From Lutraria lutraria (Eukaryota; Mollusca; Bivalvia; Venerida; Mactridae): DNA of 64,000 bases. A model generated the notes under the pieces. The model was not told the origin of the DNA, did no database searches, and saw only the letters and a program-made list of their open reading frames with translations. Positions 1-39,300 of this stretch are shown one piece after another. The DNA lies in the NCBI GenBank assembly GCA_964023205.1, contig OZ026847.1, positions 34,661,913 to 34,725,912 on the forward strand. The letters are read 5' to 3'. How positions within the stretch are numbered: position 1 is the stretch's first letter; each line of letters starts with the position of its first letter. Both the position numbers and the translations under genes were made by a program.

Positions 1-2558
1 TACGGATAGAGAGAACAAATATCCACATATTTGATTTCTTGGTCGTTGTCTACTTCATGATACAGTCGAACGGCATTCGTACGACCTCCGAACAAAGCTT
101 CCCTGGGTTGTATCGGTTCTTGACCATGATAGAATCGTTCCACTCTTGTCTTATAGGCAGGATCCTTTTGACAACGCTGATCAAATTCACATTCCCACAT
201 GACCACAACAGGGTACCCCTGTTCTTTCAAAGACTCCAGTCGTTTATACGTATCGTGATAGGCCTGTTGCATGCTTCTCAAAGTATACGGATTAATGGTA
301 CTTCGGTTAGGAAAACAGGTGGGGCACCCATGGTACCAACATCCCATAAATTCATACACGGTGTTGGTCTCTTGACAATAGCCATCCACGTAATAAGGTC
401 CAATTTTGACTTCGCCTTTGTTATTCAAGGCATGCCGAATATGTATCTCTTCGGTGACAGCCATCATTTGTAGCCAACGTATGCCTTTCATGGAATACCG
501 GGTTTTATTGGGATACCCGGCATCCGAAATCACGGCTAAACTATGAGGCGGCATGGAATTTTTGCGCCAGGCTTTGTTACACACTTGAGCTAATGTGGTA
601 GCTTCAGTAAATGGATCTATTTGATCACTTTCCAATAATTGTTGACGAAATTCTCCACACCCGCGTCTTAAAATGTCCACATCCGATTGACAGTATTTCT
701 CCATTTCCTTTTGAAAATCAAATACGTCACCTTTTCTTTCATTGTACCAGGTTAAAAACTCTTCACGTCGCTCTGGTTTCATACTATCCGGTTTGTAAAA
801 GTGTAGCGGCAAATAAGGTCCCACATAATCTTGATACGCCAGGGTGTTTGCATAGAATGGAAACCATCCTTTGGCTAACTCGGTCAGTCCAAATGTATTG
901 GGAAAACCGGAGAGAGGCATACTCAGGAAACTGAGGGAGTCAATCATGCGTATTCCATGCACTCTCAATTGAATGATTTTACTACCATTCATAATCAACT
1001 GGGGTTTCGCCGTCCCCTGAGTGAGCACATATCTAAGAATAAACTGAGCGTCATAGCCTTGAGCATTGTGGGCTATCACTGTCGATCCTCGATGGGTAGG
1101 GAGAAATAGCCAAGTACAGAATTGTTGTAACGTATTTTCACCACGGAATGTCATTTGTCTGGCTTCATTCACCTCTTCACAATACTCACATGGAGCTTTC
1201 ACTGACTTACACATACAGTCACCACAAGCACGTTGAGCCACACAAAAATTAGGGATATGTTCTCCAGAATCAAAACGACATTCAAAATCAAAAAAGATGA
1301 ATGGTACTTCTGGTTGTTTTCTATCGGGTGGTTCATACGTTGGAATGTAACAGTCATGATCTGGTCCTACTATGGCTTTACAACACCTGCATTTCTTTGT
1401 CCCTGGGCAAACGTGACTCCGTTTCGTTTCAATCACCTTTTGCCCACATTTCTTACAATTCCATACGGATTCACAAATGGTTTTACGTTGTTTTCCCGTT
1501 TTTGTTTTATGATTTTCAAAACATGCCTGACTCTGGAATAGGCGACGACAATCTGGACATCTTATAGATTGCCCTGCTGGGCACAGGGTGTGAGCATAAC
1601 ACTGACAAATATGGCTACACTGGTGTCCTTCACGGTGATCATAACTGATATCGCACCATTCACAATAATAACCCCGTCCGAGAAATCCGGTGATGGATAC
1701 GATACAGTCATAATGATTATCATGGTGAAAGATATGAATCACACGACTTTTTTCAGTCATAGCAGGTGGTTTGAATAACAATTCACTTCCATAATGTTGT
1801 GGATGGATTTTAATCACGTAGCTGGGATAGAGATAGTCCTGTAGTTTTTGGTATTCTTCTATACCACACGACTGATCCGATGAAATACCCACTTGCTTCA
1901 ACAATGCTTCAGCTTCGTATTTTTGAAGATTTTTCTTAGAGCGACGTATATAACCCCATCGTTTTTTCCATTCCGGGGTTTGATTTTCATGTACTTTACA
2001 CCGTCCTACCACAATCGATCTAGCTAAACACATAGAGTCTTTACTATTGTCAATACACACAACACTTGTCTTTGACTTCCGCATACTGAATAAGTTTGGT
2101 GCTTTAAACGTTTTCTTTCCGGTTCCCTGTGGCATAGCAATATGCGTAATTTCCATCTGTGCCGCCCCATCATGAATTTTAAATTGACGGTTACTTTGTG
2201 CCACACGTTCAATTTCATCCAACAATGTATCTCCACTAATACGAGATGCCCTATTAAACGGAACATGTATTCCAAAGTCCAAATCAGGATGTAGAATAGA
2301 TACTCGAACTCGATCATTCGACTTCACTTCACATCTCTTGTAGAGCTGATCCATCATATCATTAAACAACCTGTTTGTAAATTCAAACGATTGATTATAC
2401 GGTTGAAATGTCACATCATATACTCTAGATTGAGTCTTGAATTTCCTTGACTTTCTTTCCATGCGTGACTGTATGTCATAATAGTCGCGCACAGGCTCAA
2501 ACTTACTTCGTTTAGTTGGAGGTTCATCCTCACCACTAGTACTGTCGGTATCTGACAT
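1..2558 (-). CDS. Protein-primed family B DNA polymerase, Polinton/adintovirus type (C-terminus outside window)
   Basis: An open frame on the minus strand starts at the ATG at 2558-2556 and runs without a stop through the left window edge (852 complete codons). Seen: a conserved-looking N-terminal region at about residues 40-190 of the kind found ahead of Polinton-type polymerases; a Cys/His-rich region at about 299-405 with several CxxC pairs; 3'-5' exonuclease motifs Exo I (D424, E426 in FDFEC), Exo II (N498 to D503) and Exo III (Y622, D626); a WYHGCPTC segment at 741-748 with MWECEF near 787-792, resembling the nuclease-like insert of these polymerases; and the first residues of polymerase motif A, DICSLYP, from D846. 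The remaining polymerase and TPR motifs lie outside the window. Known of the family: replication from a protein primer in the nucleus or virus factory. The class is well supported; virus versus integrated transposon cannot be decided here. The start is supported by a TATA box about 30 bp upstream. Confidence 0.9.
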   Translation of the reverse strand, partial: MSDTDSTSGEDEPPTKRSKFEPVRDYYDIQSRMERKSRKFKTQSRVYDVTFQPYNQSFEFTNRLFNDMMDQLYKRCEVKSNDRVRVSILHPDLDFGIHVPFNRASRISGDTLLDEIERVAQSNRQFKIHDGAAQMEITHIAMPQGTGKKTFKAPNLFSMRKSKTSVVCIDNSKDSMCLARSIVVGRCKVHENQTPEWKKRWGYIRRSKKNLQKYEAEALLKQVGISSDQSCGIEEYQKLQDYLYPSYVIKIHPQHYGSELLFKPPAMTEKSRVIHIFHHDNHYDCIVSITGFLGRGYYCEWCDISYDHREGHQCSHICQCYAHTLCPAGQSIRCPDCRRLFQSQACFENHKTKTGKQRKTICESVWNCKKCGQKVIETKRSHVCPGTKKCRCCKAIVGPDHDCYIPTYEPPDRKQPEVPFIFFDFECRFDSGEHIPNFCVAQRACGDCMCKSVKAPCEYCEEVNEARQMTFRGENTLQQFCTWLFLPTHRGSTVIAHNAQGYDAQFILRYVLTQGTAKPQLIMNGSKIIQLRVHGIRMIDSLSFLSMPLSGFPNTFGLTELAKGWFPFYANTLAYQDYVGPYLPLHFYKPDSMKPERREEFLTWYNERKGDVFDFQKEMEKYCQSDVDILRRGCGEFRQQLLESDQIDPFTEATTLAQVCNKAWRKNSMPPHSLAVISDAGYPNKTRYSMKGIRWLQMMAVTEEIHIRHALNNKGEVKIGPYYVDGYCQETNTVYEFMGCWYHGCPTCFPNRSTINPYTLRSMQQAYHDTYKRLESLKEQGYPVVVMWECEFDQRCQKDPAYKTRVERFYHGQEPIQPREALFGGRTNAVRLYHEVDNDQEIKYVDICSLYP

Positions 2559-2667: not shown

Positions 2668-3018
2668 ATGAGCGATCCTAAAATGAACCAAGTTGAAGAG
2701 AACCGAGATCAAACTTTGATGTATTCATTAAAGAAGAAAATTAAAGAGCTTAACAACTTAGCGGATCAGCTCTGTGGACAGAAAAATGTAACATGGGATC
2801 ATATCAAGTGTTATCGTTGTGGAAAGAAAGGACATTATTCTACAAGCTGTACGGAACCCTTCAACAATGAATGTTTTTATTGTCATGAACAAGGACATTT
2901 CATCGCAGACTGTCCTAAGAAACAAGGTGAACAGGTCGATCTACAGGACGCAGAACAGAGTAAGAAAAAACGTAAATACAAAAAGAATCCAACAAAAACT
3001 GTGAGTGACTTTGTGTAA
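2668..3018 (+). CDS. Small protein with two CCHC zinc knuckles
   Basis: This 116-residue protein has a charged, probably helical N-terminus (about residues 15-40), then two CX2CX4HX4C zinc knuckles (C48, C51, H56, C61 and C69, C72, H77, C82), and a Lys/Arg-rich tail (about 97-110) that could act as a nuclear localisation or nucleic-acid-binding segment. Zinc knuckles of this form bind single-stranded nucleic acid in retroviral nucleocapsids and CNBP-type cellular proteins. The gene is intronless, has a TATA box 41 bp upstream of the ATG, and diverges from the polymerase gene. An AATAAA at 3123-3128 lies 105 bp after the stop, so this gene appears to use ordinary polyadenylation. A role in genome packaging or replication is inference from context. 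Confidence 0.8.
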   Translation: MSDPKMNQVEENRDQTLMYSLKKKIKELNNLADQLCGQKNVTWDHIKCYRCGKKGHYSTSCTEPFNNECFYCHEQGHFIADCPKKQGEQVDLQDAEQSKKKRKYKKNPTKTVSDFV

Positions 3019-3122: not shown

Positions 3123-3128
3123 AATAAA
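3123..3128 (+). terminator. AATAAA poly(A) signal of the zinc-knuckle gene
   Basis: AATAAA lies 105 bp downstream of the stop at 3018 on the same strand, ahead of T/G-rich sequence. It is the only conventional poly(A) signal assigned to a gene of this element. Confidence 0.5.
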
Positions 3129-3188: not shown

Positions 3189-3215
3189 ATGGTGGCCCTA
3201 ATAAGGGCCGTTGGG
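3189..3215 (-). terminator. Histone-type 3' stem-loop after the LYPDL protein gene
   Basis: On the minus strand, 10 bases after the TGA at 3222-3220, the sequence reads CCAAC, then a perfect 6-bp stem GGCCCT/AGGGCC around a TATT loop (3209-3194), then ACCA. Stem and flanks match the replication-dependent histone mRNA 3' element. The loop differs from the usual TTTC. A purine-rich stretch follows roughly 25 bases on, where the U7-binding element would lie. Confidence 0.65.
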
Positions 3216-3219
3216 TAAT

Positions 3220-3444
3220 TCATTGCATTTCTGCAAGAAATAGGTATCGCCAATAGTTGGCTCTCAAATCCTCATCATAAAAGATGGCAAGGTCAGGGTA
3301 TAAATTACCCATCTTGATATCCATCTTCACTTCTACACATGCATCTTGGAATTCAGACAAGTCTGGGTACAAATTACCCATCTTGACCACCCAAACATCT
3401 TCTTGTTCAGGTTCATCAGAAGAACTTTTCAAGCAGTTGCCCAT
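3220..3444 (-). CDS. 74-residue protein with acylation-type N-terminus and two LYPDL late-domain motifs
   Basis: Seen: the first seven residues, MGNCLKS, are identical to the N-terminus of animal RNF11, where Gly2 is myristoylated and Cys4 palmitoylated. An acidic stretch follows. The eight-residue string MGNLYPDL then occurs twice, with LYPDL at residues 25-29 and 48-52. LYPxL is the known ALIX-binding late-domain class used to recruit ESCRT. No transmembrane helix is evident. The gene lies between the zinc-knuckle gene (convergent) and the acidic coiled-coil gene (divergent), with CCAAT repeats in its upstream region and a histone-type stem-loop 10 bases after its stop. Inference: a membrane-anchored adaptor for ESCRT-dependent budding or scission. 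The strict PROSITE myristoylation pattern fails at Lys6, as it does in RNF11. The chief doubt is that the frame is short. Confidence 0.65.
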   Translation of the reverse strand: MGNCLKSSSDEPEQEDVWVVKMGNLYPDLSEFQDACVEVKMDIKMGNLYPDLAIFYDEDLRANYWRYLFLAEMQ

Positions 3445-3502
3445 GTTGAATCATGAAACATAAATGAGCTATGGAACATGAGAAAAACACTGACCTAGAA
3501 CA

Positions 3503-3584
3503 GACCAATGAAATGCCAGTAAAATAGACCAATGAAATACCGTTAAAATGGACCAATGAAATACTGTTAAAAATGGACCAATCA
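3503..3584. promoter_or_regulatory. Four CCAAT-box tandem repeats in a divergent promoter
   Basis: GACCAAT starts at 3503, 3527, 3551 and 3576, so the period is 24, 24 and 25 bp. The first three copies read GACCAATGAAAT followed by a similar filler; the last reads GACCAATCAGAG. They lie between the LYPDL gene (minus) and the acidic coiled-coil gene (plus). CCAAT boxes of the ACCAATCA type bind NF-Y and are typical of histone and other S-phase promoters, which fits the histone-type 3' ends of the flanking genes. Confidence 0.65.
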
Positions 3585-3646
3585 GAGTCCTTGTATCATA
3601 TGAGAGTCAGTGACCTTGCCTTGATCTAATTTCATTCTGTATCAAG

Positions 3647-3970
3647 ATGTCGCAACGCACGCTTAACATTATTAAGAGAAAGTATACAACCTTAGGGTTG
3701 TATATTGAACAACTGGAGATGCAGTTAGAAGAGTTGAGGTTGGAGGTGAAGACCCTGAGAGAGGGGAAGAAGTTCGCGGAGGAGGTTGTGGTCAGCTCTG
3801 GGGAAGAGGACTGGGGGGATACCCCTCAAGAATCAACCCCAGAGAACTGGGAAGATGAACTGGTAGAGGTTCCTTCGAACCTCTACCAACCTACACCGGA
3901 CCCGAAGGATGTCCAGAAATGGGACAAGTGGTGTCCTGCTTGTATGGGGAGATGCGGTCAACGCCATTAA
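3647..3970 (+). CDS. Acidic coiled-coil protein with C-terminal Cys motif
   Basis: I do not recognise this 107-residue protein. Seen: a basic N-terminus, a strongly amphipathic coiled-coil helix at about residues 14-48 rich in Leu and Glu, an acidic Ser/Glu/Asp/Pro stretch (49-75), a Pro-rich linker, and a C-terminal CPACMGRCGQRH with Cys at 96, 99 and 103 and His at 107 that could bind one metal ion. The gene is intronless and diverges from the LYPDL gene across the CCAAT repeats. GTGACCTTGCCTTGA lies about 30 bp before the ATG, resembling the TGACCTTGA sites ahead of its neighbours. Two histone-type stem-loops begin 20 bases after the stop. It is probably a structural or regulatory virus-like protein; function unknown. 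Confidence 0.6.
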   Translation: MSQRTLNIIKRKYTTLGLYIEQLEMQLEELRLEVKTLREGKKFAEEVVVSSGEEDWGDTPQESTPENWEDELVEVPSNLYQPTPDPKDVQKWDKWCPACMGRCGQRH

Positions 3971-3984
3971 TCCCCATACAAGCA

Positions 3985-4046
3985 CCAACGGTCCTTTTCA
4001 GGACCACCAACGGCCCTTTTCAGAGCCCCCATACAATTCAGAAAGA
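3985..4046 (+). terminator. Two tandem histone-type 3' stem-loops
   Basis: The first hairpin at 3990-4005 is GGTCCT, loop TTTC, AGGACC, preceded by CCAAC and followed by ACCA. The second at 4012-4027 is GGCCCT, TTTC, AGAGCC, with one mismatch. CAGAAAGAA near 4039 resembles the purine-rich histone downstream element bound by U7 snRNA. The match to the classical invertebrate histone element (AACGGCYCTTTTCAGRGCCACCA class) is seen directly. No AATAAA was assigned to this gene. Confidence 0.8.
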
Positions 4047-4277
4047 ATCACTCTCATATTGTCAATATTACTAGTATATTTACATTCCTATCTGATAACA
4101 CCAAATACAAATAGACGGTGTGAGGTAAGTTAAACATTTCCTACACATATAAGTGATAGTATGATGTGTACAATCATTTTCAACAAATATAAGTGCTGTG
4201 ATTGTACAAAGTATTTCCCCCACAAATATAAGTGTTAGTATGTGATGTACAATCATTTTCAACAAATGTCTGCAAAT

Positions 4278-4549
4278 TGCTGTGATAGTATAATGTGTAC
4301 AGTGTTCAAATTGCTGTGATAGTATAATGTGTACAGTATTCAAATTGCTGTGATAGTATTAAGTGTACAGTCTGCAAAGTGCTGTGATAGTATTAAGTGT
4401 ACAGTCTGCAAAGTGCTGTGATAGTATAATGTGTACAGTGTTCAAATTGCTGTGATAGTATAATGTGTACAGTCTGCAAAGTGCTGTGATAGTATAATGT
4501 GTACAGTATTCAAATTGCTGTGATTGTATAATGTGTACAAAGCATATCT
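4278..4549. repeat. 34-bp minisatellite, eight units
   Basis: Units begin with TGCTGTGATAGTATAATGTG-like sequence at 4278, 4312, 4346, 4380, 4414, 4448, 4482 and 4516, exactly 34 bp apart. Two variants of the unit end alternate (GTTCAAAT and CTGCAAAG classes). Diverged half-units extend left to about 4140. The array lies between the acidic coiled-coil gene and the Gln/Tyr-rich gene and could be an enhancer or replication element, or simply a satellite. Confidence 0.85.
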
Positions 4550-4558
4550 ACAATATAA

Positions 4559-4742
4559 CCTTGACCTTGACGTGTCAAACACTTGTTAAAAAAACTTGAA
4601 GTGTCACACTTGTAAAAACTTGAAGTGTCACACGTATTCAAAAAAACTTCTCACAATTGACCTTGACCTAATAGAACACTGGCGCGTGCAGGCAAAAAGT
4701 ATAAATACCCCCGGCGCAGACACTATTTTTTCATTATCTAGC
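4559..4742 (+). promoter_or_regulatory. Promoter of the Gln/Tyr-rich protein gene
   Basis: TATAAATA at 4700-4707 lies 36 bp before the ATG at 4743. CCTTGACCTTGAC at about 4559 and TGACCTTGACCT at 4658-4669 repeat the TGACCTTGA site found ahead of the polymerase and zinc-knuckle genes. Two copies of an AAAAACTTGAAGTGTCACAC-like direct repeat lie between them (about 4591 and 4615). The TATA position argues against the longer frame that opens at 4596. Confidence 0.65.
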
Positions 4743-5474
4743 ATGGAGTCCTTCAACATGCCATACGATATATTGAGAGAAGCACTAGAATCATCTGAGC
4801 TGATAGACCCGAATGCGGGTATGCATTACAACCAGCCGAAGTACAACCAGCCAAAGTACGGTCAACTACAGTATAGGCAGCCACAGTACAGCCAATACAG
4901 TCAACCACTGTACAGCCAATACAGTCAACAGTCCATGGTAGATGTACAGCCTATGGTAGATGTACAGCCGATACAACCCATGGTAGATGTACAACCCACT
5001 ATGACGAATACACAACCCATGGTAGATGTACAACCCACTATGACGAATACACAGCCTATACAACCTATGACGAATACACAGTCTATGGTAGATGTACAAC
5101 CCACTATGACGAATACACAGCCCTCTATGGCGAATACACAGCTTATGACGGATAAACAGTCTAATACAATGGGTGATACAAAGCCTACAACGGGGTTGTC
5201 TGTTCTACAAGGTATCAAGGAAGAAATGGTACAGATGAATCAAGTCATGCAAGAGATGGTCAGACTCATGAAAAATCAAGAAGTACGGTTTAAGCCACAA
5301 GAAATGATTGTACCTGTACAGTTTATGTATGATTCAAAGAAACGAAAACATGAGCATGAGAAAAAGAAACCGGAGCATGACAAAAAGAAACCGGAGATGA
5401 CAGAAACGAAGAAACGAAAACATGATCTTGAGAAACAACCTCGGGGCAAGTATGGTAAAGAAATAAAGAAATGA
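4743..5474 (+). CDS. Gln/Tyr-rich repeat protein with coiled coil and basic tail
   Basis: I do not recognise this 243-residue protein. Seen in order: a short N-terminal region; a Tyr/Gln/Pro-rich segment (about residues 28-63) of YNQPKY/YSQYSQP repeats; a second repeat zone (about 64-140) alternating MVDVQP and TMTNTQP hexa/heptapeptides, visible as tandem repeats in the DNA; a helical Met/Gln-rich coiled coil (about 158-182); and a very basic Lys/His/Glu tail (about 200-243) with KKRK and KKRKH nuclear-localisation-type clusters. Start chosen because ATG 4743 lies 36 bp after a TATA box. Two perfect histone-type stem-loops begin 26 bases after the stop. Low-complexity Q/Y composition suggests a self-associating or condensate-forming protein with nucleic-acid-binding tail; this is inference. 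Confidence 0.7.
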   Translation: MESFNMPYDILREALESSELIDPNAGMHYNQPKYNQPKYGQLQYRQPQYSQYSQPLYSQYSQQSMVDVQPMVDVQPIQPMVDVQPTMTNTQPMVDVQPTMTNTQPIQPMTNTQSMVDVQPTMTNTQPSMANTQLMTDKQSNTMGDTKPTTGLSVLQGIKEEMVQMNQVMQEMVRLMKNQEVRFKPQEMIVPVQFMYDSKKRKHEHEKKKPEHDKKKPEMTETKKRKHDLEKQPRGKYGKEIKK

Positions 5475-5495
5475 AGATCCGACTAACAGTCACAA

Positions 5496-5565
5496 CCAAC
5501 GGTCCTTTTCAGGACCACCAACGGCCCTTTTCAGGGCCACCATGTCTTTTCGAAAGAAAATTCTC
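5496..5565 (+). terminator. Two tandem perfect histone-type 3' stem-loops with U7-like downstream element
   Basis: The hairpin at 5501-5516 (GGTCCT, TTTC, AGGACC) is followed by a hairpin at 5523-5538 (GGCCCT, TTTC, AGGGCC). Each is preceded by CCAAC and followed by ACCA. CGAAAGAAAA at 5551-5560 sits where the purine-rich histone downstream element is expected. Both stems are perfect 6-bp pairs with the canonical loop. Confidence 0.85.
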
Positions 5566-6037
5566 TCATTGTCTCAAATATTTAGTCTATACAGTACAAA
5601 TAACAAAACACACACAGTACCCAGAACATTCCTAAAATCCATTTCATACTATTTTGGGGTACAACATTGATTTCCAATTTGTCCTAATTTGTCACAATTT
5701 TGAAAACTTCTGGGTACCAATTACGTTGATTAGTACCCAGGGTATCGCCATATACTACTTACGAAAGTAATAAAAAAGATGGAATTACGTATGGTATTTA
5801 TAAATTTAAACGAGAATCATAATTAGAATTCATAAATATTGAAATTTGAAACTTGGATATGAATAACTGCAGTAGAATCAGTCCTAACAAGATTGATTTC
5901 TTCGAAACATTGGTGATAAATAACAAATATAAGGACTTATCAATAAAGTGCAATATAGAATCTAGTTCCCTCTGTAACTTCAGTTAATAGTATTTGTTTC
6001 TGTCCTGTTGGTGATTCGGTAAACAAAATGTGCATGC
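5566..6037. other. Non-coding; possible right end of the virus-like element
   Basis: No gene seen. CTGGGTAC at 5710-5717 and GTACCCAG at 5733-5740 form an 8-bp hairpin, and another GTACCCAG occurs near 5617. The element may end near here: read from the right, the sequence near 5758 begins AGTAGTATATGG, and Polintons are known to start with AG. Without the left end this is speculative. Confidence 0.3.
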
Positions 6038-29760: not shown

Positions 29761-32700
29761 GACAAGCATGAAAAGCATGTTTCCATAGCCTCGTGGAATA
29801 TTGAAGGCTTAGCAAATTGCATTGACGATGAAGACTTTGTAAATTTCTTATGTTGTTTTGATATATTTTTTACATGTGAAACTTGGCAAAGCAAAGATCG
29901 TAACTATGATATAGAGGGTTATAGCACGTGTATTTTACCTCGGCCTCAATCTATGAATACTAATAATAAACGTGGTCACGGTGGTTTATGTTTATTTTAT
30001 AAAACAACACTGTCTGATGGTATTGAAATAATGGATTGTGATAGCAATGGTATCATATGGGTAAAATTGAACAAGCGGTTTTTTCGTACGGATGATGATA
30101 TTTATGTATGTTTCTGTTACATTCCTCCACAGAATTCTGTTTATTTCGCTCTGCATCCAACAGGTTTCTTCGAAAGTTTAGAAACTAAAGTTCGCAAATA
30201 TTCCTCTTTAGGTAAAGTTTCGATCATTGGGGATCTTAATGCAAGAACTGGTACTAAGCCAGATTATCTGCTTTCAGATGACAACCTAGGTAGATATTGT
30301 GACAATGTAGAAATAGACTATAATTCGAGTAATGATAACACATTGACCGTTAGAAAAAACATGGATACAGTTGTTAATTCGTCTGGAAACAAGCTATTAG
30401 ATATTTGTATAAACTCTAAGTTGAACATTGTGAATGGTAGAGTTGGCAACGATAGTAATGTTGGTAAATACACATTTATGTCAACCATTGGTAACAGTAC
30501 GATTGATTATGTTATTATGTCACGTGATTTGTTTTCCTATGTACGTAATTTTGTTGTACATGACATGTTTTCTTTTTCATCTCATATGCCGATACATGTT
30601 GATCTTGATATATTTTGCTCAATTGATGATAGTGGTAAAAATGACGCTAGATATGAAAAACTTAATTGGGATGTTTCTTATGCTGATTCATTTCGTGAAC
30701 TTGTTAACTCAGATTTAAACTCTTTTAACCAGATTGCTGATAGAATATTAGGTAATGATTTAGATATTCACGATGGTATTAAGTCATTGTCAGATTTACT
30801 TTATGAAAAGGCTTTCAATTTATGTGGTGCTACCATAAATACGAAAGCTAATAAGAACAAAGACAACACTCGTAACTTCAAAAGTCCGTGGTTCAACGAC
30901 GAATGTGAAAACGCGCGGCGTGATTTTAAGCGAGCAAACAAAAATTATAACAAAGATAGATCTGATTTTAATCGGAATATTTTAATCGAGAAAAGAAAGA
31001 AGTATAAAGGCACTATACGTAAAGAAAAATCGTTGTTCAATTCTAAAAATAAAAATAAATTACATAATCTTGCTACAACTCAACCTCAAGCATTTTGGAA
31101 AGAAGTTAAGAAACTTAAACAAACAAAAAATGATAATACTATTGATATAGATGTTTTTTATGATCATTTTAGGAATTTATTTTCGGATGATACATATTTC
31201 ACTAACGATCTTGTGGAAGAAAGTATATCGGAGGATAATTTTATGCAAAATATACAAATTGACGAATTAGACTGTGAAATAACTGAAAGTGAAATAATTA
31301 AGGCAATTTCTAGTCTTAAGGCAGGAAAAAGTGGGTCGGATGATAAACTAATTCCAGAATTATTTATCTCATGTAAATTTATTATAGCACCTATGTTATG
31401 TAAAGTATTCAACCATATGTTTGATAACTGTGTATATCCCGAGTATTGGACAAAGGGCACGATCGTTCCAGTTCCGAAAAAGGGAGATAAAAACAATGTA
31501 AACAATTATCGCGGAATAACTTTGACAAGTATATTTTCAAAAATATTTTCTATCTTACTCGATAATCGTCTACGACAATGGGCTAGTGATAATAACATTT
31601 TGTCCGATAATCAGTTTGGTTTTGTTAAAAACAGAAGTACAGTGGACTGCATTTTTGTTTTAACTTCAATTATCGACAAAGTAGTGAATAATGAAAAGAA
31701 GAAAGTATATTGTTCTTTTATCGATTTTAAGAAATGCTTTGATTATGTTTATAGAAATGGTATCTGGTTCAAATTAATACAACAAGGTGTGTCTACAAAG
31801 ATTGTTAAAATGCTGCAAAAAATGTACGAAAGTGTGAAATCGTGTGTCAAGGTCAAAGGTTGTCTTTCTGAATATTTTGATAGTTATATGGGTGTTAAAC
31901 AAGGTGAACCTTTGTCACCATTATTGTTTATATTATTTGTGAATGACATGAAATCTTATTTACAAAACACATCTGATGATGTTTTTACTCTAGATCAATT
32001 ACAAATATTCTTACTTTTGTTCGCCGACGATACAGCTATATTTGCCTATTCTAAAGCTGATTTACAGCTATTATTAAACAAATTGCACTGCTACTGTAAT
32101 GAGTGGGGAATATCTGTTAACATAAACAAAACTGTCGTTATGGTTTTCAAGAAAGGAAATAGAGTCGAAAATGTGGATTTATTTTATGATGGTAATAAAC
32201 TTCAAATAGTCAAAACATTTACGTATTTAGGTGTTACACTATCATCAAACAGCAGTTTCTATCAAGCGCAAAAATCACTCTCTAACCAAGCAAATAGAGC
32301 ACTTTATTCTCTTAATTCACTTTTTGATGTTCTCTCTATGAAAATTTCTGAAAAAATAAAATTGTTTGATGCTATGATTATGCCAATACTAAGTTATGGA
32401 TGTGAAATATGGGGTTTTCATAAATCACCAGATATTGAAAAAGTACATATAAAATTCTTGAAACAATTGCTTTGCGTTCATTCTAAAACTTCAAATGCGG
32501 CCGTTTATGGCGAATTTGGACGATATCCACTTTTAGTTAGGAGAAAAATTAGAATTATAAGGTACTGGTATAGAATTTTGAAAGCCCCAAACTCATTAAT
32601 GTTCAAGTTACTGAATCTAAAAAATGATGAGGGAGAATCAATAAACTCTTGGTCAGTAAATGTTAAGTCATTACTATGTAATCTTGGTTTTTCGTACCTA

Positions 32701-33204
32701 TGGGATAGTGTAAACATAAGCATGTTTGAAATTAACTGTGTAATTCAGAGAATTATTGACAATTATACACAAAGTTGGTTTAGTGATTTAAATTGTTTTT
32801 CAAGATTGGAATGTTATAGAAGCTTTAAAACAAGTTTTGAATTTGAAAATTATCTCAATTGTATTAACAATGATAAATATAGACTATCAATGGCCCGATT
32901 TAGATGTTCAGCACACAAACTTGCTATTGAAGAGGGAAGATGTAGAAATATGGAGAAAAGCCAGCGTATTTGCAAATTATGTAATATGAATCAAGTAGAA
33001 ACAGAGTATCATTTTCTTTTAGTTTGTCCTTTTTATCTTAATCTTAGGAAAACACATCTTCAAAAATATTATTATACATGGCCAAATCGTCAGAAGTTTA
33101 GATCATTGATGAATTTGAGAAGTAATATAAAAGTAATTAAACTTGCATCTTTCATTCATTTTGCCACGTTATCAAGGGATTCCTTCTTAATACAAGCAAG
33201 ATAA
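29761..33204 (+). CDS. LINE A ORF2 protein: AP endonuclease and reverse transcriptase
   Basis: The open frame runs 1147 codons from the codon after the ORF1 stop. Residues 1-240 form an APE-type endonuclease: SWNIEG near the start, CETW, GDLNARTG, STIDYVI and a final SSHMPI where most family members have SDHxP. Residues about 480-800 form the reverse transcriptase: PVPKKGD, FIDFKKCFDY with catalytic D655, GVKQGEPLSPLLF and FADD with D756 and D757. The C-terminus has a CCHC-type finger (CKLCN..H..C). The first ATG in frame is 29953, which would drop the catalytic Asn and Glu of the endonuclease. Translation by readthrough or non-AUG reinitiation is therefore likely. No stop or frameshift is present, so the copy may be recent. 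Confidence 0.88.
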   Translation, partial: DKHEKHVSIASWNIEGLANCIDDEDFVNFLCCFDIFFTCETWQSKDRNYDIEGYSTCILPRPQSMNTNNKRGHGGLCLFYKTTLSDGIEIMDCDSNGIIWVKLNKRFFRTDDDIYVCFCYIPPQNSVYFALHPTGFFESLETKVRKYSSLGKVSIIGDLNARTGTKPDYLLSDDNLGRYCDNVEIDYNSSNDNTLTVRKNMDTVVNSSGNKLLDICINSKLNIVNGRVGNDSNVGKYTFMSTIGNSTIDYVIMSRDLFSYVRNFVVHDMFSFSSHMPIHVDLDIFCSIDDSGKNDARYEKLNWDVSYADSFRELVNSDLNSFNQIADRILGNDLDIHDGIKSLSDLLYEKAFNLCGATINTKANKNKDNTRNFKSPWFNDECENARRDFKRANKNYNKDRSDFNRNILIEKRKKYKGTIRKEKSLFNSKNKNKLHNLATTQPQAFWKEVKKLKQTKNDNTIDIDVFYDHFRNLFSDDTYFTNDLVEESISEDNFMQNIQIDELDCEITESEIIKAISSLKAGKSGSDDKLIPELFISCKFIIAPMLCKVFNHMFDNCVYPEYWTKGTIVPVPKKGDKNNVNNYRGITLTSIFSKIFSILLDNRLRQWASDNNILSDNQFGFVKNRSTVDCIFVLTSIIDKVVNNEKKKVYCSFIDFKKCFDYVYRNGIWFKLIQQGVSTKIVKMLQKMYESVKSCVKVKGCLSEYFDSYMGVKQGEPLSPLLFILFVNDMKSYLQNTSDDVFTLDQLQIFLLLFADDTAIFAYSKADLQLLLNKLHCYCNEWGISVNINKTVVMVFKKGNRVENVDLFYDGNKLQIVKTFTYLGVTLSSNSSFYQAQKSLSNQANRALYSLNSLFDVLSMKISEKIKLFDAMIMPILSYGCEIWGFHKSPDIEKVHIKFLKQLLCVHSKTSNAAVYGEFGRYPLLVRRKIRIIRYWYRILKAPNSLMFKLLNLKNDEGESINSWSVNVKSLLCNLGFSYLWDSVNISMFEINCVIQRIIDNYTQSWFSDLNCFSRLECYRSFKTSFEFENYLNCINNDKYRLSMARFRCSAHKLAIEEGRCRNMEKSQRICKLCNMNQVETEYHFLLVCPFYLNLRKTHLQKYYYTWPNRQKFRSLMNLRSNIKVIKLASFIHFATLSRDSFLIQAR

Positions 33205-36364: not shown

Positions 36365-39300
36365 GACGCTCACACAAATAAGTTATCGTTCTTACTTTGG
36401 AATGTCAACGGAATAAGCAAAAAACTTGATGACTGTGACTTTATAAACTTTGTTTCGGATTACGATATACTTCTTCTTACAGAAACTTGGATATCGCAAC
36501 ATTCTAATGTTAATCTAACTGGGTATAAACATTTCACATGTGCTAGACCAAAATTTAATCGTGCGGCTAGGCGCAATAGTGGTGGTATAATTGTATATTA
36601 TAAAGAAATTTATCACAACTATCTACAGCTCATTAGCATAAATAATATTGGTATTTTGTGGTTTAAACTTAGCAAAGATTTTACTGGATATGAAAATGAT
36701 ACGTATTTCTGTGTCTGTTATATACCACCCGAAAACTCTTCTGTATACACAAATACTAAATCTCCTATGTTTAATGGTGATTACTTTGATGTATTGAACA
36801 GTGATATTATGCGTTATAATGATTTAGGAATGGTATATGTTACTGGTGATTTTAATGCACGCACGGGATTGTTGCCTGACTTTGTATCTAATATTCAGTT
36901 AGATCGTTTTGTGGACTTACCTACGGATGATGAAGTATTGTATACTTTACCTGTACGGAAAAATAATGATGTGTGTATAAATCCGTTTGGCCAACATTTA
37001 TTAAATCTTTGTAAATGTAATGATTTATGTATTGTAAACGGTAGATTAGAACAAGGAAATTTTACTTTTAATTCTTTGCACAGAAATAAACACATTGCCA
37101 GTACAGTAGACTATTTAATTTCAATGAAAAAATATTTTCACTATGTTTCGAATATGTGTGTCCTTGATATGAATGAATTTTCAGATCATTGTCCTATTGT
37201 TTTTACATTGTCTTGCTTTTGTAGCAGGAATGGTTTAACTCTATATTACTGTTGTGTACACTTTTTAACTATTTATTTATGATAACATTGTTTTCTGTAT
37301 TAATCAAGTAGTTTGATTGTTAAGATTTTGTAGCCTGTCCATATACTGTTTTGTGTAAACACTAATCAATGTATAATTACTATGTCTAGAGTATACTTCA
37401 TGAATCTCATGCTATTACAAATGTATCTTACCAGTTGCTCATGTTTCATGGGAATGTAATCCATTTTGGCGGGAATTTTTAGTATATAAGTCAGCGAAAT
37501 CTTATTATCTTTGCCTTTCTTATTGGACTCCATAGGTAACGTTTACCTTTTGTTTCAAAGACTGGTCACTTCACTTAAAATTCAATTTAGGGTTAAATTT
37601 TTGTCCAATTTAGCTTTGTTAGAAATTAACTTTAATAATTAAATTCAGTAGATAATAAACAGGCACCATTAGACATTGTATTATGTATTTATAAATATAT
37701 AATATCAGGATAAACTTAAATAAAATATATAGATCTTGTATAGTGAGTTATCATCTTTTATTTGCAATTAGTGTATAGTTATAAAGAAAACAAATACATG
37801 TATAACTTGATAAAACCACGATAGAACCTGGGTTGAAAGAATTATGCCTCCTGTTACACTTTCAACATACTTCGTATAATATTGACAGTAGTTGTAATGT
37901 TGATAAAATTACTTGGGATAGTAGTAGAAAAACTGACTTTATTTCTAGTCTTGAACAGAATAGACATTTATTTGATGATATTTCAAATAAGTTAACTGTA
38001 GTAATAATGAATCTGACATAAATCAATGTATACAACAGTTCTCTAGTATAATACATGATATCTCATTCAAATTATTTGGTCTGACGTATGTTCAGAATAG
38101 CAGATCATCTTCTCATAGTAAGAAGAAATCTGTTTGGTTTAATGATGATTGTAGATTGGCTAAATCAGTATTCCTTGATGCTAAAAGAAGGTATAAAAAT
38201 GATCCATCAAATTGTAATAAAGTATCTTTTCTTCAAGCTCGGGCATCGTTTGCTAAAACCAAGCGGAAATGTAAGAAATCGTTTTATTGTAATGAGGGAG
38301 TAAAATTGTCATCTTTGTGTAAATCTTCTCCCAGAAAATTTTGGAAATATATCAATAAATTTAAAAATAATTCATTACGTTCAAGCAATGTCGGAATTGA
38401 TGATTTTATTAAGCATTTTGAAACTATTTCTAATACGCCTCATTGTGACTTTAGTAGCGATAATTATACACAGTCTCGTGATAATCCATTATTCATTAAT
38501 CAATTAGATGCGCCTATTACAGTAGATGAAATCGTTAAAACTTTAAAGAACCTGAAACGTAATAAAACTTGCGATCTGGATGGTAATTTCGCCGATTTTT
38601 TTATTGACGCTAGTGATTTTATTTCTCCGTATCTTAGTGTTTTATTTAACAGAATCTTTGACTCTGGTATCTATCCAGAGCAATAGTCTAAAGGAGCTAT
38701 CATACCGATTTTTAAAAAAGGTGATGCTACATGTCCTGCAAATTACAGGGGAATCACCATAATAAATGTTTTAGCTAAAGTATTTTCTCTACTTTTACGT
38801 AACAGAATAAACAAATGGTCTGAAGATGATAATATTTTCAATGATTGTCAATATGGATTTCGTGACAACAGGTCAACATCTGATGCTATATTTATTCTAC
38901 ACAGTGTAATACAGAAAATACTACAAAAAAATAAGAAATTATGGTGTGTCTTTATTGATTACGAACGCGCTTTCGATACAGTTATTAGGGATGCTTTATG
39001 GGTAAAATTATTGAACTCGGGTCTGAGTTGTAAAATGTTAAATATTTTGAAAAGTATTTATAGTGATGTTACTCTTTGACAGGGTTAATCTCTCAGTAAA
39101 AACTAAATTCTATTTGTTTGACACTTTAGTTGTACCTATTCTTTTGTATGGGGCTGAAATATGGGGAGTATATAATTATAAAGAAATAGATAAATTACAT
39201 ATAAGAATTTGTAAGCGCATTCTAGGTGTTCATAAACATACACCGAACTATGCAGTACTTGGAGAACTTGGTAGGTTTCCTTTGTATGTCATTGCTAAAG

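Follow-up and report, generated by a model that had tools for sequence, protein, structure and literature searches.

Histone-type 3′ stem-loops behind accessory genes of a Polinton in the bivalve Lutraria lutraria

Can the genes of a mobile element end in the 3′ stem-loop of replication-dependent histone mRNAs? The question is raised by a stretch of DNA from the bivalve Lutraria lutraria, 64,000 nucleotides long (the window; C16:34661913-34725912, on contig OZ026847.1, in a 728.5-Mb genome). The window contains the right part of a virus-like element, which by its sequence is a Polinton/Maverick. A preliminary description of the window had placed five hairpins of the histone class just behind three genes of this element. 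We find that the hairpins are real, occur in hundreds of copies, are matched to the hairpins of the host's own histone genes and reach further than first noted, to the four accessory genes p157, p74, p107 and p243. We put the probability at roughly 0.8 that these four genes of a recently amplified Polinton give rise to mRNAs that are processed by SLBP and U7, carry no poly(A) tail and are made mainly in S phase.

Hairpins behind four accessory genes and in the host histone cluster

The element, read in separate pieces, spans C16:34650530 to window position 5759 (17.1 kb), with a TACGAA duplication on both flanks. The features that concern the hairpins are given below by window position.

Left of the window, in L012: p157, left terminal gene, outward-facing, with a double hairpin
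3194–3209, minus strand: stem-loop after p74, GGCCCT-TATT-AGGGCC, with loop TATT
3220–3444, minus strand: p74, an open reading frame of 74 amino acids whose product starts MGNC, with a single stem-loop at its end
3647–3970, plus strand: p107, an open reading frame of 107 amino acids with a double stem-loop at its end
3990–4005, plus strand: stem-loop 1 after p107 (GGTCCTTTTCAGGACC)
4012–4027, plus strand: stem-loop 2 after p107, with one mismatch in the window copy
4041–4046, plus strand: purine core GAAAGA, putative histone downstream element; the surrounding stretch is invariant in 6/6 elements
4743–5474, plus strand: p243, open reading frame of the right terminal gene, outward-facing, Q/N-rich in composition with a lysine-rich C-terminus
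5495–5759, plus strand: right terminal inverted repeat, starting at the double hairpin, with its left partner in L012
5501–5516, plus strand: stem-loop 1 after p243, within the inverted repeat, from the hairpin scan
5523–5538, plus strand: stem-loop 2 after p243, within the inverted repeat
5552–5557, plus strand: purine core GAAAGA after p243
5760–5765, plus strand: target site duplication TACGAA, the same as at the left end

These are the five hairpins of the preliminary description, at the same positions, and as described there four of the five have a TTTC loop and four of the five a perfect stem. Its reading of the hairpins as histone-type holds as well: they resemble those of the host in stem and loop, and in part in the C at −1 and the purine core at +14, lie on the sense strand behind stop codons and recur in the element family. 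What needs correction is the gene count, since the three genes named are joined by p157, left of the window, for a total of four. In the window element the hairpins lie 10–48 nt past the stop codon: at 12 and 34 nt for p157, 10 nt for p74, 19 and 41 nt for p107, and 26 and 48 nt for p243. The purine-rich elements that had been seen behind both plus-strand sets are the GAAAGA sequences at 4041 and 5552, each at +14 from the last stem.

A strict hairpin scan of the window returned four hairpins, the fifth being invisible to it on account of the TATT loop. One hundred dinucleotide shuffles of the window gave a mean of 0.19 hairpins and a maximum of 2 when one mismatch was allowed, and a mean of 0.01 and a maximum of 1 when the stem had to be perfect. 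Folding z-scores were −4.2, −2.4 and −2.5. The Rfam Histone3 model matched 5518–5564 at 35.8 bits, 3214–3169 (the p74 hairpin) at 31.0 bits and 4007–4052 at 23.3 bits, the latter two under the cut-off of 34 bits. The same model found matches in related elements, and scores across the family ranged from 23.3 to 41.6 bits.

We compared the element hairpins with those of the host histone genes, which form a tandem array on C6 with about 6.84 kb per unit. The unit that was read holds H3, H4, H2B, H2A and H1, each with a hairpin 28–31 nt past the stop codon. The 16-nt hairpin of host H1 is the same as element hairpin 1 (3990–4005 behind p107 in the window) at all 16 bases, and the four core histone genes share the stem of element hairpin 2 with a TTTT loop. 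Position −1 is C in the host core genes and in the elements, and A in the Rfam consensus and in host H1. The host histone hairpins themselves score 30.5–34.5 bits, four of the five under the cut-off. Downstream of the stem, GAAAG starts at +14 in host H2A, in 16 of 20 cassettes from element ends (terminal cassettes) and in 5 of 6 p107 copies. The remaining four terminal cassettes have GATAGA at +14 (L001), CAAAAGA at +13 (L014 and L020) or a rearranged cassette (L019). Host H3 has GAGA at +14, and H4, H2B and H1 have neither GAAAG nor GAGA.

The host also encodes an SLBP RNA-binding domain, in two adjoining stretches that are presumably exons. Candidates for U7 were sought with the pattern TCTTTN{0,20}AATTTNTCTAG: 136 matches compare with 169 in the reversed control, and among the 41 of the 136 whose downstream sequence was folded none was a convincing U7 gene. 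Matches at C12:22.88 Mb were also ruled out as host histone genes; they belong to a tandem array of a 109-amino-acid non-histone gene (p109), and the histone cluster is the one on C6.

Copy number, conservation and the terminal inverted repeats

Exact matches in the genome number 2,168 for the pattern CAACGGYCCTTTTCAGRRCC and 338 for the p74-type hairpin; the reversed control gave 0 in both cases. The first 100 places listed for CAACGGYCCTTTTCAGRRCC all lie on C1 and make up 17 whole elements of one layout, with a single place left over where the list ends. Each of the 17 has outward-facing hairpins at its two ends and a further, inner set 1.3–1.7 kb from one of them; in 14 the six hairpins are complete by exact match. 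Arithmetic from the counts in this section gives an estimate of about 350 elements in the genome. A genome search with Rfam Histone3 returned at least 44 matches (75 scored of 131,090 candidates); its control was detected in 1 of 14 genomes, under the cut-off.

An approach independent of the hairpins started from the bivalve F54H12.2-like protein of the element, which we take to be its capsid protein (MCP). Protein searches gave 473 candidate MCP copies, of which 97 were scored. For the 30 of these that lie on C1, C3, C4 and C5, which are all the scored copies there and for which the p74 list is complete, the p74 hairpin is in place in 30 of 30, 11.3–12.7 kb away and in the correct orientation. 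All 97 scored copies are 99–100% identical, and 96 are without a stop codon. Judged from such comparisons, the Polinton burst is very recent and much of the copy number is due to it.

Within this genome the hairpins are not absent from related elements but recur across the family. At 20 of 20 terminal loci a hairpin lies 7–79 nt beyond the point where the match to p157 or p243 ends, on the same strand and down to about 70% protein identity, a count that is biased because 18 of the 20 loci were chosen through containing a hairpin. The inner hairpins, those of p74 and p107, played no part in locus choice, and both were found in 5 of 5 further elements. The p74 hairpin is identical in four of these and has one stem base altered in the fifth, at 66–91% identity of the p74 protein; homologues of p107 are present in five other elements (split over two frames in L057). 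Hairpin 1 of p107 is invariant in 6 of 6 elements, the window included. Hairpin 2 varies, with a U-A pair replacing C-G in L015, a G-U form in another copy, the mismatch in the window and decay in L054, where the GAAAG stretch is retained. Invariant columns make up 94–96% of the p74 hairpin and its 3′ flank, compared with 47% at 50–180 nt beyond. The corresponding figure past the p107 hairpins, 30%, was set aside, since several of the sequence pieces stop in that region. Searches for relatives by pattern, MCP and MCP alignment confirmed none in viral contigs, and MCP alignment and pattern gave none in genome contigs.

To place the terminal cassettes within the elements, both ends were compared for six of them. 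In four, the left and right ends agree from the tip inward over 259–293 bases, up to the double hairpin and no further; in two of these four, the agreeing stretch includes one or two 20-base bins of weaker agreement. In the other two, agreement extends 10 and 21 nt past the last hairpin (96% and 86% identity). The inverted repeat thus starts at the hairpin cassette, or no more than 21 nt from it, in 6 of 6 elements, and the repeats are 86–100% alike. All six are flanked by 6-bp duplications (TACGAA, CATGAC, GCTAAT, AGTGAT, GACTCG and GCTTTG). We can therefore add to the earlier account that the hairpin pair at 5501–5538 is located within the terminal inverted repeat. Since the cassette forms the inner edge of both repeats, the outward-facing terminal genes have one common 3′ end.

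A model of 3′ end processing and its alternatives

Four further features bear on how the element genes may be expressed.

2668–3018, plus strand: zinc-knuckle gene, 116 amino acids, contrast gene without hairpin; zf-CCHC 3.9e-8
3123–3128, plus strand: AATAAA, poly(A) signal of the zinc-knuckle gene
3505–3582, no strand: four CCAAT boxes (3505, 3529, 3553, 3578) between the divergent p74 and p107
4700–4707, plus strand: TATA box 5′ of p243

The poly(A) signal that had been assigned to the zinc-knuckle gene was found 104 nt past its stop codon. AATAAA likewise follows the stop codon of the protease, integrase and a 120-amino-acid gene, the range for all four being 3–104 nt. Behind the 16 element genes examined besides p157, p74, p107 and p243, the four with AATAAA among them, no hairpin was found within 400 nt or to the end of the piece. 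Between p74 and p107, the five other elements have 4, 4, 3, 4 and 4 CCAAT boxes with 24-bp spacing. This divergent promoter region presumably resembles those of H2A-H2B gene pairs.

According to the account in PMC7026596, U7 recognizes the downstream element of histone pre-mRNA by base pairing, and CPSF73 cuts between it and the stem-loop, the distance from the downstream element being fixed. SLBP binds the histone hairpin, and such mRNAs go up in S phase and down afterwards, as outlined in PMC12775136. By the same route, host SLBP would bind the element hairpin, the U7 small nuclear ribonucleoprotein would bind the purine element about 14 nt past the stem, and CPSF73 would cut between the two, leaving an mRNA that ends in one or two stem-loops and has no poly(A) tail. 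With the purine core at +14 of hairpin 2, cleavage would fall after hairpin 2, and both hairpins would stay on the mature mRNA. At both ends of the element, the cassette of the inverted repeat would provide the 3′ end of the outward-facing gene. Ordinary poly(A) signals would be left to the zinc-knuckle gene and probably to the core genes. In the animals studied SLBP is present mainly in S phase, so the four accessory products would be expected mainly during host DNA replication.

We also consider a more far-reaching version, to which we give slightly better than even odds. Here the terminal inverted repeats would have been turned into shared histone-type 3′ ends, a divergent CCAAT promoter resembling that of histone gene pairs and S-phase control would govern the accessory genes, and the tandem hairpins would be a new messenger end that binds SLBP twice. 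With such transcripts, the animal mRNAs that have a stem-loop instead of a poly(A) tail would for the first time include a virus-encoded, non-histone class.

Several observations weigh against SLBP/U7 processing of the four messages. A[AT]TAAA lies 100 nt past the hairpin in L001, and AATAAA 88 nt past the stop codon of p157 in the window element. Neither a hairpin nor a poly(A) hexamer is seen behind PolB (the family-B DNA polymerase gene), behind MCP or behind some further genes, so the genes do not divide cleanly into two classes. The p74 cassettes have no GAAAG core at +14, and no purine core was present at that distance from the minus-strand hairpin 3209–3194 of the window. A search with Rfam RF00066 did not find U7, and says little, since the control for this family was detected in 0 of 14 genomes. 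As the scored MCP copies are 99–100% identical, copy number is weak as evidence of selection. The 80 coding bases ahead of the p74 hairpin are 88% invariant, close to the 96% of the hairpin itself. Covariation is slight, with one covarying pair and 4 cells; two of five measures were no higher than in shuffles (459 of 500 as high), and the other three were higher than in all but 13 of 500. The RNA 3′ ends, the lack of a poly(A) tail and the binding of SLBP and U7 are predicted for the element mRNAs from DNA sequence, and S-phase timing is carried over from other animals.

Some of these points would fit hairpins that bind SLBP and affect translation or stability while the mRNAs are cleaved and polyadenylated further downstream, which we regard as unlikely. 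The AATAAA behind p157 would suit such a reading, as would the failure to identify U7 and the presence of A[AT]TAAA within 260 nt in 6 of 20 terminal cassettes. In these six the hexamer is close by in L012 (offset 38) and L001 (offset 100) and lies past the element end in at least three, namely in the window, L003 and L008. However, the 260 nt after 14 of the 20 terminal cassettes are free of A[AT]TAAA, nor was the hexamer seen over the 200–260 nt that follow the examined p107 and p74 hairpins. The AATAAA of the zinc-knuckle gene, on the other hand, is retained at 104–122 nt past the stop codon in five copies, the window included (six were looked at and the stop was found in five). Retention of the +14 purine core, in 16 of 20 terminal cassettes and 5 of 6 p107 cassettes, also speaks against this reading.

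Their place at the inner edge of the inverted repeats in 6 of 6 elements might instead suggest that the hairpins work as DNA, in replication, packaging or integration. This is very improbable, given that two further sets are internal, after p74 and p107, that loop and flanks are oriented sense to the upstream gene in the 20 terminal loci, and that host H1 has the identical 16 bases. That identity would also be expected if the signals had been copied once from a host histone gene and were functionless passengers in a young burst, as would the near-identity of the scored MCP copies and the weak covariation. Yet the three cassettes differ in sequence, a U-A pair replaces C-G in one stem, and the p74 hairpin and flank stay 94–96% invariant next to a protein of 66–91% identity and to 47% invariant DNA 50–180 nt beyond, and we judge passengers to be less probable still. 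The lowest probability goes to transcripts from hundreds of copies acting as decoys that draw SLBP or U7 off host histone mRNAs. The 2,168 and 338 hairpin matches and the tandem hairpins could serve that end, but each hairpin set of the window element stands behind an open reading frame, and some of these frames have promoter-like features, as fits the 3′ end of a coding message. Processing of the four accessory messages by SLBP and U7 thus remains our preferred explanation.

The Polinton, related systems and implications

The polymerase gene occupies the left end of the window.

1–2558, minus strand: family-B DNA polymerase gene, N-terminal part, Pfam DNA_pol_B_2 1.6e-16; the remainder lies left of the window in L011 (6.9e-15)

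PolB matched PF03175 and the rve integrase PF00665 plus a chromodomain; PolB together with an rve integrase is expected of Polinton/Maverick elements. The element further encodes an A32-like packaging ATPase (Pfam Pox_A32, 2.4e-8), the F54H12.2-like protein and a weakly matching adenain-type protease (Peptidase_C5, E 0.043, under the cut-off). The putative capsid protein has no Pfam match and has 384 homologues, with bivalve F54H12.2-like proteins among the 120 listed; the nearest named match among those listed is from Mercenaria (72–73%). PolB, the integrase with chromodomain, the ATPase, a putative capsid protein of this kind, inverted repeats and 6-bp duplications are shared with Polinton/Maverick elements and the related animal adintoviruses, from which the element differs in the histone-type 3′ ends of its accessory genes. 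The chromodomain is C-terminal in the integrase (L011 325-1398) and may guide insertion to marked chromatin.

The accessory proteins are not histones: p157, p107 and p243 have no Pfam match, and p74 matches solely PadR, under the cut-off. No LxCxE motif was found in the four proteins, and a search of the protein collection gave 2 homologues for p157. A 34-bp tandem repeat of eight copies lies at 4234–4607, between p107 and p243, and repeated TGACGTCA-like (CRE-like) motifs lie 5′ of p157 (L012, about 4279–4398). Elsewhere in the window, 29761–33204 and 36365–37282 hold reverse transcriptase and endonuclease frames unrelated to the element.

With the replication-dependent histone mRNA 3′ end (Rfam RF00032) the element genes share a 6-bp stem, a 4-nt UNUN loop and the AAC 5′ flank of the host core histones. 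They also share hairpins 10–48 nt past the stop codon, a purine core at +14 in two of three cassette types and small single-frame genes. They differ in being non-histone genes by Pfam, in having tandem hairpins at three of the four genes of the window copy, and in that one cassette type is part of a terminal inverted repeat. Stem-loops have been reported for histone mRNAs of the bivalve Lucina in PMC6210712. Viruses with a link to histone biology include one in a clam: bracovirus H4, Manila clam xenomavirus H3 and others are listed in the review PMC9145170. What those viruses encode is a histone protein, whereas the element has the mRNA end signal, and has it behind unrelated genes. Neither stem-loop nor SLBP occurs as a term in that review.

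We know of no description of histone-type 3′ ends on Polinton accessory genes. In the literature searched, which took in Polinton and adintovirus papers and few subscription papers, no earlier report of a viral or transposon gene with a histone-type 3′ end was found.

The p109 array in the same genome (C12:22.877-22.915 Mb; L009, that is C12:22876000-22884000, L010 and L013) is, judged on sequence, another candidate for a non-histone message that ends in a stem-loop, and is unrelated to the element. Like the element genes, it has a non-histone gene followed by a histone-type hairpin, here with one mismatch. It differs in its tandem units of about 1.5 kb and in its 227 homologues, among them proteins of Mya (82%) and Pinctada. 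Comparison of p109 with p107 gave no significant similarity, and the p109 product had no match in the structure database.

Replication-dependent histone mRNAs are described as the only known animal protein-coding mRNAs in which a 3′ stem-loop replaces the poly(A) tail, according to the accounts in PMC6303110 and PMC12775136. If our reading is correct, the histone-only rule would be broken by a mobile element that is present in an estimated 350 copies and has the signal behind four non-histone genes. This would give a Polinton a route to couple its expression to host replication, would account for poly(A)-selected RNA data missing these transcripts, and would provide naturally occurring tandem stem-loops for work on SLBP and U7.

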